A stretch of DNA of 57,070 nucleotides from assembly GCA_030650395.1 (NCBI GenBank), contig JAUSDY010000104.1:1-57070 (forward strand), given 5' to 3'. The DNA is from Acidobacteriota bacterium. Lineage in GTDB: Bacteria > Acidobacteriota > Vicinamibacteria > Vicinamibacterales > UBA2999. The translations under genes were made by a program, and so were the position numbers. A model generated the notes under the pieces. The model was not told the DNA's origin and made no database searches. It was given only the letters and a program-made list of their open reading frames with translations. This document shows, piece after piece, positions 41,523-47,773 of this stretch (position 1 is the first letter of the stretch; each line of letters opens with the position of its first letter).

Positions 41523-42300
41523 CGATCGATCGTAGCTCGTCGAGGGTCATCGGATCTGAGTCAGATGGTATTTCAAGAACGAACGCGCGCGGATCGATCT
41601 CGATGTTCACCTGCAAGTCGCCGATGCGAGCGGTGACGTCGGTGCCAGTATCGCCCGAGGGGCGGACGCGGACGACGCGCGGGTAGCCGCCGGTGTGTTC
41701 GGCGTAATCGATCCGCCACGGTCCGTAGTCGGCGGCGACGACCACGGTCTGGCCCTGGCGCGAGCGAAGATACGCGGTGCGTCCGGGCGCGAGCGTAACG
41801 GCCTGCCATCCGCCGGGCCATCGGCGGCCGTCGGCCGGTGCGGCGTTGTCGATGAGGCAACCCGACACCATCAGCCGCAGATCGTCGGCGCCAAGCGCGA
41901 GCCCGGTCAGCCGCTCGAGCACTTCGGGCACAGGCGTTTCTTTCAACACGCGCCGATCGCGGGGCAGCAACAACGTGGCGCGCTCGTTCCTCCCGGCGAG
42001 GATGAACACCGGCGCGCCGAATGGCGCGATGCCCTCGAGCCGAACCGCGCCGCCGGATTCGAGGCCGGCGTGCACCCGGCCGCCGAGCTTCTCGCCGCCT
42101 GCGCGGCCTGACAGCGCGAGCTCTGCGGTCAGCGTCCGGAAGCCGCGGCACGCGCGCGTCGCATTGGTGAACGCCTCAATCGCGGTCGGGTCTGCGGTCG
42201 TCGCGCCGGTCGGACGCGGCGGCATTCGTGCCGCGCACCCACCAAGCACCACAACGCTTGCGGCAAGAAGGAGGCATCTGCCCCGGCCGAACAACATCAT
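41491..42300 (-). CDS. LolB-like outer-membrane lipoprotein
   Basis: 269 residues. The signal ends in the lipobox VLGGC. The mature part has an amphipathic start (AIEAFTNATRACRGFRTLTAEL) and beta-strands typical of the LolA/LolB fold. LolB inserts lipoproteins in the outer membrane. The order lolB-ispE-prs matches E. coli and is the main support, since sequence likeness alone is weak. It overlaps the TPR gene by four bases (ATGA). Confidence 0.7.
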   Translation of the reverse strand: MMLFGRGRCLLLAASVVVLGGCAARMPPRPTGATTADPTAIEAFTNATRACRGFRTLTAELALSGRAGGEKLGGRVHAGLESGGAVRLEGIAPFGAPVFILAGRNERATLLLPRDRRVLKETPVPEVLERLTGLALGADDLRLMVSGCLIDNAAPADGRRWPGGWQAVTLAPGRTAYLRSRQGQTVVVAADYGPWRIDYAEHTGGYPRVVRVRPSGDTGTDVTARIGDLQVNIEIDPRAFVLEIPSDSDPMTLDELRSIAPLAPKPQAP

Positions 42301-44343: not shown

Positions 44344-44514
44344 ATGCCAGTCGATGCTGAGTTGCTCGAAATCCTCGCGTGTCCGGCCTGCAAGACTCCG
44401 GTGACGCTGGTGAAGCAGGGTGCGGCCCTCAAGTGCGCGTCATGCCACCGCGTCTATCCCATCAAGGACGACATCCCGGTGATGCTGATCGACGAGGCGA
44501 CGGTCGAACCCTGA
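44344..44514 (+). CDS. Trm112-like zinc ribbon protein
   Basis: 56 residues of the UPF0434/Trm112 family. Two CxxC pairs (C13/C16 in LACPACK, C31/C34 in KCASCH) form a zinc ribbon, and YPIKDDIPVMLIDEA is the family end. In bacteria such proteins often precede lipopolysaccharide genes, as here. A GTG ten codons upstream is possible. Confidence 0.88.
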   Translation: MPVDAELLEILACPACKTPVTLVKQGAALKCASCHRVYPIKDDIPVMLIDEATVEP

Positions 44515-45584
44515 AGATTCTGCTGATCCGGCTGCGCCTGATCGGGGATGTGGTGTTCACCACGCCCGCGATCGGCGCGTTGCGCCGGCGGTTCCCCGGC
44601 GCGCGCATCACCTACCTTGTCGAAGCCGCGGCCGAGCCCGTGGTGCGGCACCATCCAGGCCTTGACGAGATCATCGTCGCCGCGCGTCCGCGCGGGTTCG
44701 AGCGATGGCGCTACGACGTCAGCCTCGCGCGCCGCATTCGCGCCGCGCGCTTCGACATCGTGATCGACTTTCATGGCGGGCCGCGCAGCCGTGTTCTCAC
44801 GTGGGCCAGCGGTGCGCCGCAACGGATCGGCTACGGCCTGCCCGGACGATCGTGGGGCTACACGGTTCGAGTGCCGTGGACGCGCTCGCTCGTGCCGCCG
44901 CGGCATTCGGTGTCGAATCAATGGGATCTGATCGCAGCGCTCGGGATCGGCGAGCCCCATCGTGTCACGGATCCGGTCGTGATGCCCGTGGATCCGCCCT
45001 CGGTGGCGCGCGTGGCCGGGCGCCTCGCCGCGGCCGGTGTCTCCGCGACCGCGCCGATCGTGGTCGTGCACGTGAGCGCCGGCAACCCGTTTCGCCGCTG
45101 GCCCGCCGCGTCGTTCGCGCAAGTCGCGGCGACGCTCGCACTGGAAGAGCCGCGGCGGCGAATCGTCATCACTTCGGGGCCGTCCGAAGCCGACGCAGCG
45201 GAGGCCGTCGCGGCGGAGGCGAGGGCACTGGCCGGCGCTGCGGCCGGCAGCATCGTACGTTGCGGGGAGTTCGACCTGTCGGAGCTGCGCGCGCTCGTCG
45301 ATCGAGCCGTGTTGTACATCGGCGGCGACAGCGGCCCGCTCCACATCGCCGCCACTTCGTCGACGCCGGTCGTGGCGCTGTTTGGACCGACGCTACCCGA
45401 GCGATCGCTGCCGTGGCGCGATCCGTCGTTGCGAAGCATGGCGGTCGACGCAGGACCCCTGCCCTGCCGGCCGTGCCATCAACGGCACTGCGTGCCGGGG
45501 GACTTTCGCTGTCTGACCGCGATTTCGCCTACCATGGTTCTCGACGCTGCCCGCGCCCTGCTGCGCGTAGAGGCGGGTCTGTAG
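44511..45584 (+). CDS. GT9 heptosyltransferase-like glycosyltransferase, probable CTG start
   Basis: 357 residues. The first Rossmann strand KILLIRLRLIGDVVFTTPA and the acceptor/donor motifs VHVSAGNPFRRW and GGDSGPLHIAA identify ADP-heptose:LPS heptosyltransferases. Family members begin MKILLI; here the codon before AAG is CTG, and no ATG, GTG or TTG is in a suitable place. The CTG overlaps the Trm112 stop as CTGA, so coupled initiation at CTG is the best reading. Its stop lies in the palindrome 45571-45592. Confidence 0.85.
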   Translation: MKILLIRLRLIGDVVFTTPAIGALRRRFPGARITYLVEAAAEPVVRHHPGLDEIIVAARPRGFERWRYDVSLARRIRAARFDIVIDFHGGPRSRVLTWASGAPQRIGYGLPGRSWGYTVRVPWTRSLVPPRHSVSNQWDLIAALGIGEPHRVTDPVVMPVDPPSVARVAGRLAAAGVSATAPIVVVHVSAGNPFRRWPAASFAQVAATLALEEPRRRIVITSGPSEADAAEAVAAEARALAGAAAGSIVRCGEFDLSELRALVDRAVLYIGGDSGPLHIAATSSTPVVALFGPTLPERSLPWRDPSLRSMAVDAGPLPCRPCHQRHCVPGDFRCLTAISPTMVLDAARALLRVEAGL

Positions 45585-45602: not shown

Positions 45603-46781
45603 ATGACGACGATTTCTCTTACCGCAGGCGCGGCGCCGCGCGATCGCATCGACCAGGCCGGCCTGCTCGCGCTCGTCGGCATCGTCGCGGCGATGCAGCT
45701 GTCGATCGCGGCCACGCAGATTCTGCTCGGCGTCGCGTCGCTCTGCTGGCTGGCCTCGCACCTCACTCGTAGCGAACGGCTCGAGGCGCCGCCATTGTTC
45801 TGGCCACTCGTGGTCTACGCCGCGCTGACGCTGGCATCCGCCGGCTTCTCGCTCGATCCGCGCGTCAGCTTCAGCGATTGCAAGCAGCTGGTGCTGCTGA
45901 TGCTCATCCCGCTGGTCTACGATTTCGCGCGCGGCGGGCGCGCCACCACGATGCTCAGCGTGATCCTCACCGTCGGCGCCGCCAGCGCGCTGGTGGGGAT
46001 CGTGCAGTACGGCGTGCTCAACTTCGACAACCTTGGCCGCCGGCCGCAGGGCACGCTGTCGCACTGGATGACCTACTCGGGCACGTTGATGCTCGTGATC
46101 TGCGCCACCGTGGCCCGGCTGCTCCACGCCAAGCACGGCCGCCTCTGGGCCGCGTTCATCATGCCGGCGCTGCTGGTGAGCCTGATGCTGACCCAGACGC
46201 GCGGCGCCTGGATCGGCGTGGCGGTCGGCGTCGGCGTGGTGTTCCTCACGAAAGATTTCCGGCTCACCGCGTTGATCCCCGTGGTGGTGGTCACCGCCGT
46301 GGTGCTCGCACCGGAAGCGATCAGAGATCGCGCCATTACGATCTTCGACAAGAACGACCTTACCAACCGCGACCGCATCGCGATGCTGCAAGCCGGCGTG
46401 GCGATCGTCAAGGACTATCCCCTCACGGGTGTCGGGCCGAATCAGATCGAGCGGATCTATCCGAACTACCGCGTGCCGGACGCAGTGAAAGCCACCAATC
46501 CGCACTTGCATAACGTGCCGATGCAGATCGCAGCGGAGCGCGGCTTGCTCGCGCTCGCCGCGTGGCTGTGGTTCGTGGCCTCGGCGGCATTAGGTTTGTT
46601 GCGGCTGGCGCGCCGCACTCGGCATCGCAGCCTCGCCGCCGCCGGCCTTGGCGCCCTCGCCGCGATGCTGGCGGCCGGCCTGACCGAATACAACTTCGGC
46701 GACTCCGAGTTTCAGATGCTACTGCTCGTGATGCTGACGCTGCCCTTCGCCGCCAACCGCGACGGAGGGTTGCCGTCGTGA
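45603..46781 (+). CDS. O-antigen ligase/polymerase-like membrane protein
   Basis: 392 residues with about ten to twelve membrane segments. The large periplasmic loop and Wzy_C-type motif (LTQTRGAWIGV, then GVGPNQIERIYPNYRVP and NPHLHNVPMQIAAERG) are typical of WaaL/Wzy proteins that join or polymerise surface glycans. It follows the GT9 gene and overlaps the heptose kinase start (GTGA). Confidence 0.87.
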   Translation: MTTISLTAGAAPRDRIDQAGLLALVGIVAAMQLSIAATQILLGVASLCWLASHLTRSERLEAPPLFWPLVVYAALTLASAGFSLDPRVSFSDCKQLVLLMLIPLVYDFARGGRATTMLSVILTVGAASALVGIVQYGVLNFDNLGRRPQGTLSHWMTYSGTLMLVICATVARLLHAKHGRLWAAFIMPALLVSLMLTQTRGAWIGVAVGVGVVFLTKDFRLTALIPVVVVTAVVLAPEAIRDRAITIFDKNDLTNRDRIAMLQAGVAIVKDYPLTGVGPNQIERIYPNYRVPDAVKATNPHLHNVPMQIAAERGLLALAAWLWFVASAALGLLRLARRTRHRSLAAAGLGALAAMLAAGLTEYNFGDSEFQMLLLVMLTLPFAANRDGGLPS

Positions 46782-47773
46782 CGCCTGCCCTGCTTCCAGA
46801 GATCGCGTCCGCGCGCGCGCACGAGTTGATCGATCGGTTCGCGTCGCGCCGGATCACGGTCGTGGGCGACGTCATGCTCGATCGATTCCTGATCGGCCGT
46901 GTCAGCCGCATGTCGCCCGAGGCGCCGGTGCCCGTGGTGGTGTTCGATCACGAAGAGTTCCGGCTCGGCGGCGCGGCCAACGTGGCGCACAACCTCCGCG
47001 CGCTGGGCGCGGCGGTTGATCTCATCGGCGTGATCGGCGCCGACGAGTCGGGCACGCAGCTCAAGAACGAGCTCGCCGCAAAGGGACTCCATGCCTCGGG
47101 TCTCGTCACCGATCCGGAGCGCCGCACCACCACCAAGATGCGCGTCGTCACCAACAGGAACCAGCAGGTGTCGCGCATCGATTACGAGTCGGATCACGAA
47201 GTCGGCCCTGTGATCGAGAACGCGATTGCCTCGCAGGTCGAATCGCGCGCGCGCTCGGCGCAGGTGGTTCTGGTCTCGGATTATCAGAAGGGTGTCGTGA
47301 CCCGCCGCTCGATGGCACACTTGGTCGCGTTCGGCCAATCCAACGGCGTGCCGGTGATCGTCGACCCCAAGGTCCCGCACATCGATTACTACGCGGGCGC
47401 CGCGCTCGTCACGCCCAATCATCACGAAGCGGAAAGCGCCACCAACTCGCGCATCGTGACCCATGAAGACGCACAGCGCGCCGCAACGGTGCTGCGCCAG
47501 CGTCTTGGCGTGGCCAGCGTGCTGATCACCTGGGGCGAGCACGGCATGTGGCTGAACCACGGCGGCGTCGACGGTTATCTTCCCGCGTCAGCGCGCGAAG
47601 TGTCCGACGTCACGGGCGCCGGCGATACCGTGATTGCCACGCTCGCCCTGGCGATCGCCGCCGGCGGCACGATGCCCGAAGCCGCCCGCCTCGCCAACGA
47701 GGCCGCCTGCATCGTCGTCGCCAAGTTCGGCGCCTCCACGGTCACGCCTGAAGAGCTCAAGCAGCGGTTCTAG
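46778..47773 (+). CDS. rfaE1: D-glycero-beta-D-manno-heptose-7-phosphate kinase
   Basis: 331 residues from GTG at 46778, overlapping the previous stop by four bases. PfkB-type kinase domain only: VVGDVMLDRFLIGRVSRMSP, FRLGGAANVAHNL and DVTGAGDTVIATLALA. The nucleotidyltransferase half of HldE is absent. It makes heptose-1,7-bisphosphate for ADP-heptose, the donor used by the GT9 enzyme upstream. Confidence 0.92.
   Translation: MTPALLPEIASARAHELIDRFASRRITVVGDVMLDRFLIGRVSRMSPEAPVPVVVFDHEEFRLGGAANVAHNLRALGAAVDLIGVIGADESGTQLKNELAAKGLHASGLVTDPERRTTTKMRVVTNRNQQVSRIDYESDHEVGPVIENAIASQVESRARSAQVVLVSDYQKGVVTRRSMAHLVAFGQSNGVPVIVDPKVPHIDYYAGAALVTPNHHEAESATNSRIVTHEDAQRAATVLRQRLGVASVLITWGEHGMWLNHGGVDGYLPASAREVSDVTGAGDTVIATLALAIAAGGTMPEAARLANEAACIVVAKFGASTVTPEELKQRF

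Follow-up and report, generated by a model that had tools for sequence, protein, structure and literature searches.

A Probable CTG Start Codon, Overlapping the Stop of a Trm112-Like Gene, in a Family 9 Glycosyltransferase Gene of the Vicinamibacterales

The glycosyltransferase family 9 (GT9) gene described here very probably begins at a CTG codon that overlaps the stop codon of the gene before it, and sequence comparison gives good support to this start as a further case of a rare but known kind. The gene lies on the forward strand of the window (the whole stretch of DNA analyzed, 57,070 nucleotides of contig JAUSDY010000104.1 from an Acidobacteriota bacterium of the order Vicinamibacterales). 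The junction reads GTC GAA CCC TGA, and the CTG at positions 44511-44513 overlaps the TGA (44512-44514) of an upstream forward-strand gene (44344-44514) encoding a Trm112-like small protein of 56 amino acids. This four-base CTGA overlap (44511-44514) was pointed out in the original prediction, which proposed the CTG as the start of the transferase, and it is directly visible in the sequence. From the CTG, the frame remains open to position 45584 and encodes 357 amino acids (44511-45584; LKILLIRLRLIGDVV). Because 104 orthologues could be compared, the case for the CTG start goes beyond chance: the same CTG is present in eight of nine members of the genus, and in 22 of the 104 orthologues in the order.

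Both products belong to recognized protein families, as the transferase matches Pfam PF01075 (glycosyltransferase family 9) at 107.2 bits and the upstream protein matches PF03966 (Trm112p) at 53.1 bits, with a gathering cut-off of 22 in each case. The best NCBIfam match of the transferase was the LPS heptosyltransferase III model TIGR02201, at 137 bits and under the curated cut-off of 170.2, and we therefore name the protein only heptosyltransferase-like. It is followed on the same strand by a gene of the O-antigen ligase (Wzy_C) family (45603-46781; PF04932, 76 bits, cut-off 31.7), and then by a heptose-7-phosphate kinase gene (46778-47773; TIGR02198, 353.3 bits, cut-off 345) that overlaps the ligase gene by GTGA; judged by these neighbors, the setting looks like LPS core synthesis. 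The earlier remark that GTGA and ATGA join other genes in the window was borne out, for example by GTGA at 46778-46781 on the forward strand and ATGA at 42297-42300 on the reverse strand. In three of six stretches from the genus, the gene downstream of the transferase starts with GTG at an overlap of its own, and a tendency toward weak starts is thus not confined to the transferase.

An orthologue search of the order gave a match in 110 of 162 genomes, and the 5′ end could be read in 104 of these (98, plus six more); the six matches left out (G011, G043, G077, G081, G084, and G103) are fragments without a 5′ end. Codon position 1 was assigned by ungapped extension of the alignment, and it is occupied by GTG in 32 orthologues, CTG in 22, TTG in 17, ATG in 16, and other codons in 17 (first 98: GTG 29, CTG 21, TTG 17, ATG 16, other 15; six later genomes: GTG 3, CTG 1, other 2). 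An NTG codon accordingly aligns with the CTG of the window in 87 of the 104. Within the genus, the one member without CTG has TTG. The same codon also occurs slightly upstream of position 1: in a second genus of the family (g24), five genomes have CTGA three codons earlier, and one further genome (G065) has it two codons earlier, in each case as the sole candidate among the 12 codons ending at position 1, while G106 has CTGA three codons earlier but TTG at position 1. In total, CTG without any ATG, GTG, or TTG across the 12-codon stretch that ends with position 1 was found in 25 of the first 98 orthologues, as well as in G100. Counting the 22 with CTG at position 1 and the six with it as sole candidate two or three codons earlier, 76 of the 104 have neither arrangement. 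Two of the 22 (G090 and G091, family f6) carry GTG three codons upstream and may not use the CTG. Six of the 98 lack ATG, GTG, TTG, and CTG throughout these 12 codons, so an NTG start could not be located in every orthologue. On a quick tree of 149 columns with 40 open forks, the groups whose position 1 is CTG (family f1, f10, f6, and one f2 genome) stand apart; the tree requires six changes between CTG and other NTG codons and gives no direction of change.

Five orthologues of family f3 (G075, G059, G078, G055, and G069; L071, L072, L074, L086, and L093) lack NTG throughout the 12 codons ending at position 1, and carry ATC or ATT at 0, -1, or -3; in two of them (G059 and G069), the frame contains no standard codon as far back as its preceding stop. 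The sequence ATC TCN CGN is common to three f3 genomes (G075, G078, and G076; L186 for the last), of which the G075 contig ends just upstream, and ATG is found at -23 in G078 and at -15 in G076. ATC or ATT starts of the transferase gene are possible in some members of this family.

Residue 1 of RfaF (PDB 1psw), the ADP-heptose LPS heptosyltransferase II, aligns with residue 1 of the transferase (MKILVIG and LKILLIR; E 2.2e-12), and position 1 of PRK10916 also aligns with this residue, in a match below that model's cut-off. RfaF and the protein described here share the GT9 family and this alignment of first residues; they differ in that similarity is low, and the name heptosyltransferase-like is kept. 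A codon-usage score trained on stretches from the genus placed the onset of the coding frame one codon before the CTG, or 147 bases into the frame starting at 44361.

At the overlap, initiation is most likely by termination-reinitiation, in which a ribosome finishing the Trm112-like protein at the TGA would step back one base and restart at the CTG, perhaps with the help of an upstream GAGG (44494-44497, forward strand), a distant Shine-Dalgarno-like stretch that lies 13 bases ahead of the CTG and is at the same time part of the Trm112 coding sequence. The CTGA at 44511-44514 has the overlap expected of a termination-reinitiation pair. The CTG would be read by the ordinary fMet-tRNA (CAU), and the protein would begin with methionine. 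Reinitiation of this kind would let a very weak start codon serve, and would tie the output of the transferase to the upstream gene; output from the CTG would be low, and coupling to Trm112 translation, which the overlap suggests, fits the anatomy of the junction. Taken together, the CTG start and reinitiation are probable, at a lower confidence than the CTG start itself. A four-base overlap at position 1 occurs in 24 of the 88 orthologues with Trm112 upstream, as CTGA in 14, TTGA in seven, and GTGA in three; the ATGA that the original prediction expected at the junction in relatives was found in none of the 24. An altered initiator tRNA was also considered. The genome of the window (G000) encodes one tRNA-Met(CAU) that carries the three G-C pairs characteristic of initiator tRNA, and of its two exact matches to the usual stem-loop, ARAGORN calls one as tRNA-Met(CAU) and makes no call for the other. 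Across the order, the usual stem-loop is exact in 120 of 162 genomes, the other 42 including G004, G008, G024, G044, and G099.

The strongest alternative keeps the CTG as the start and has it reached by direct Shine-Dalgarno initiation, independently of Trm112 translation; we regard this as a minority possibility for the window. It draws on relatives in which the two genes are apart. In all five f10 genomes (L128, L130, L135, L137, and L184), the Trm112 stop begins 12-13 bases before the CTG and runs into GAGG (as TGAGG), which places the GAGG 7-8 bases before a non-overlapping CTG; this arrangement was seen in four genomes and held in the fifth, G100, which was read afterwards. Direct initiation is likely in f10, one member of which (G101) also has an in-frame ATG 16 codons upstream of the CTG. 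In G005 (L012), the Trm112 stop and the CTG are separated by a spacer of 36 bases, which opens the junction, and the CTG is kept. Pairing with the 16S tail of -5 kcal or below, in the region 21 to 4 bases before the codon, was found at eight of 14 overlapping CTGs, compared with 114 of 490 gene-internal positions; among standard starts, it was found at 12 of 49 without overlap and nine of 13 with overlap. Such pairing suggests that direct initiation may contribute at the overlapping CTGs. However, the GAGG of the window lies as far as 13 bases from its CTG, and GAAG stands in its place in six of the 14 orthologues with the CTG overlap, which counts against this alternative.

A start further upstream, inside the Trm112 gene, would make the CTG an internal leucine codon, and we consider this improbable. 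Three forward-strand codons could serve, none of them mentioned in the original prediction: an ATG at 44442-44444 (adding 23 residues), a GTG at 44433-44435 (adding 26), and a GTG at 44379-44381 that begins the longest mechanically listed open reading frame (401 amino acids). All three are in frame in the genome of the window, and a GTG or ATG at codon -26 recurs in many of the relatives with the overlap. The GTG at -26, however, spans the conserved Lys-Cys codons of Trm112 (AAGTGC), and is thus there for another reason, while the ATG at the 44442 codon is present only in G000 and G024 among the 14 orthologues with the CTG overlap. Among the 31 orthologues with the Trm112 stop either at position 1 or three codons upstream of it, nine have a frame that does not stay open as far back as codon -26, and three of these nine have CTG (G001, G038, and G041). 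In eight orthologues (G001, G005, G038, G041, G098, G099, G100, and G102), among them the closest relative by protein identity (G001, 80%), there is no ATG, GTG, or TTG at all from the preceding in-frame stop up to the CTG, which in these eight is at position 1 or three codons before. In addition, G005 and the f10 genomes carry the CTG without overlap, and in those genomes the codon is therefore not a by-product of Trm112 codons. An upstream start would also require an overlap with Trm112 of at least 73 bases in the genome of the window. Finally, an internal codon would not be restricted to CTG, TTG, GTG, and ATG at position 1. Leucine-type codons at this position in the 98 orthologues are CTG (21) and TTG (17), with no CTC, CTT, or CTA, whereas the internal leucine columns 3, 4, 7, and 9 have 183 CTG and 145 other CTN codons (Fisher p 1e-5, relatedness ignored).

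A start at the first standard codon downstream, the GTG at 44550-44552 on the forward strand, is far less probable still. GTG is a standard start and is found at codon +13 in several relatives, but its use would drop residues 1-13, and with them the first strand, as the original prediction had argued, and the Gly12-Asp13 pair, which is present in 98 of 98 orthologues; moreover, the first standard downstream codon lies at +23 in G001, +36 in G024, and +43 in G044. A literature search for Asp13 of heptosyltransferase found nothing, and for this reason no catalytic role is claimed for it. A sequence or assembly error hiding a true ATG or GTG, which the original prediction had raised against itself, has nothing for it except the rarity of CTG and can be dismissed, since separate assemblies agree: 22 of 104 genomes have this CTG, and among them are named assemblies that come from different projects.

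The start is also rare among the sampled genomes themselves. In a census of starts in the genus, 35 of 51 gene groups had an all-standard start column, with 157 copies (ATG 124, GTG 27, and TTG 6). This homology-based census is noisy, and the remaining 16 groups consist of the present gene and 15 that were read by eye, which proved to be mostly wrong frames or misplaced onsets, and among which no shared CTG was seen as the sole candidate. A second census, of in-frame NTGA overlaps, found 121 in 571 neighboring pairs (ATG 53, GTG 45, TTG 5, and CTG 18), counts that pool orthologous stretches of seven genomes and are not independent. Of the 18 CTGA junctions, 12 read CTGATG, with the ATG as the likely start, and the GT9 gene (as its G006 copy) is alone in having no standard codon among the next 12; further copies of it were missed, as Trm112 falls below the 80-codon limit of the census. 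By comparison, the Trm112 gene itself starts with ATG in 82 of 88 genomes and GTG in six (81 read directly as ATG, and one placed a codon early with ATG next), and an ATG start of the transferase is found in 16 of the same 88. The predominance of ATG in Trm112 indicates that weak starts are not a general feature of these genomes. Outside the window, on the minus strand of G000:C9 (L159), a gene that is NuoK-like by eye, with a product beginning LTVPIGHYLVLSGLL, has CTGA where G002, G006, and G007 have GTGA, and there is a GTG two codons later.

The last codon of Trm112 bears on whether the CTG is retained. In the 15 four-base overlaps in which Trm112 ends in proline, this codon is CCC in 14 and CCT in one, while the commonest proline codon in the genus sample is CCG (4654 of 8283, 56%; CCC 1999), and CCG at this site would make GTG at the overlap. 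Across the 15 taxa, this site ranks first in conservation among 16 fourfold sites (14/15, against 13/15 for the next three), which hints that the C is kept; neighboring fourfold sites are nearly as conserved, and with so narrow a margin selection for the C is not proven. CCC occurs in 20 of 22 cases in frame with TGA and in six of 16 elsewhere (Fisher p 0.001, relatedness ignored, one far pair, G036, included). ATG is found at none of 27 overlaps and at 16 of 60 starts elsewhere (p 0.002, relatedness ignored), and A is rare at the third positions of the proline codons counted, which bears on its absence at the overlaps.

We tentatively suggest that the transferase start in this order could be under selection to stay weak, a doubtful reading that draws on the rarity of ATG (16/88, against 82/88 for Trm112), on the retention of CTG where GTG could arise through a synonymous change in Trm112, and on the apparent use of ATC or ATT by some f3 members. 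Equally tentative, and part of the same reading, is the idea that the weak start, linked to Trm112, could control LPS core synthesis by dosage or in dependence on IF3. Regardless of its cause, the recurrence of CTG in 22 of 104 orthologues makes a natural series of ATG, GTG, TTG, and CTG at one position, which can serve to test whether a very weak start becomes usable when it overlaps a stop. Gene finders normally do not accept CTG, and any that are confined to ATG, GTG, and TTG would misplace the start, creating a long overlap in many genomes and losing the Gly-Asp pair in others. The CTG is a real but easily overlooked signal that many relatives in the order keep, some of them without an ordinary alternative.

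Among known systems, the AUU start of infC is a conserved weak start codon and is autoregulated by IF3; the conservation of a weak start is the point of likeness, and the IF3 autoregulation is a feature of infC. The GTC start of sigR in Streptomyces is similar in that a rare start is kept genus-wide (32 of 34 species) and was earlier mis-annotated, and it differs in belonging to a sigma factor gene with a strong ribosome binding site and tested repression by IF3, whereas the start described here is a CTG at an overlapping stop that is known from sequence (accessible text of PMC5472188). As to CUG itself, the other three NTG starts are all stronger in E. coli, where CUG reaches 0.86% of AUG, and its share of bacterial start codons is given as 0.024% (accessible part of PMC11497404); in a reconstruction across 36 genome groups, four switches to CUG are reported from 68,906 ancestral AUG, GUG, and UUG starts (PMC5622118, accessible part). 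Reinitiation at non-AUG codons is treated in PMC4648390 mainly with eukaryotic scanning in view, and was set aside, and the available text of PMC3890552 has CTG only as an ORF-finder setting. Among titles and the openings of abstracts, with few subscription papers covered, none concerned a CTG start of this gene or a CTG start in this order. A further parallel is with the -4 (NTGA) overlapping gene pairs, a known setting for reinitiation that is usually preceded by a Shine-Dalgarno motif (Huber, 2019, PMC6728339; reviewed in PMC12548453; accessible text of both). A word search of the available text of PMC6728339, which names ATGA, did not find CTGA, and PMC12548453 refers in its accessible part to NTGA in general. 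In those pairs, as here, the TGA and the NTG share two bases, at which the ribosome is thought to restart, and the pair described here differs in that N is C.
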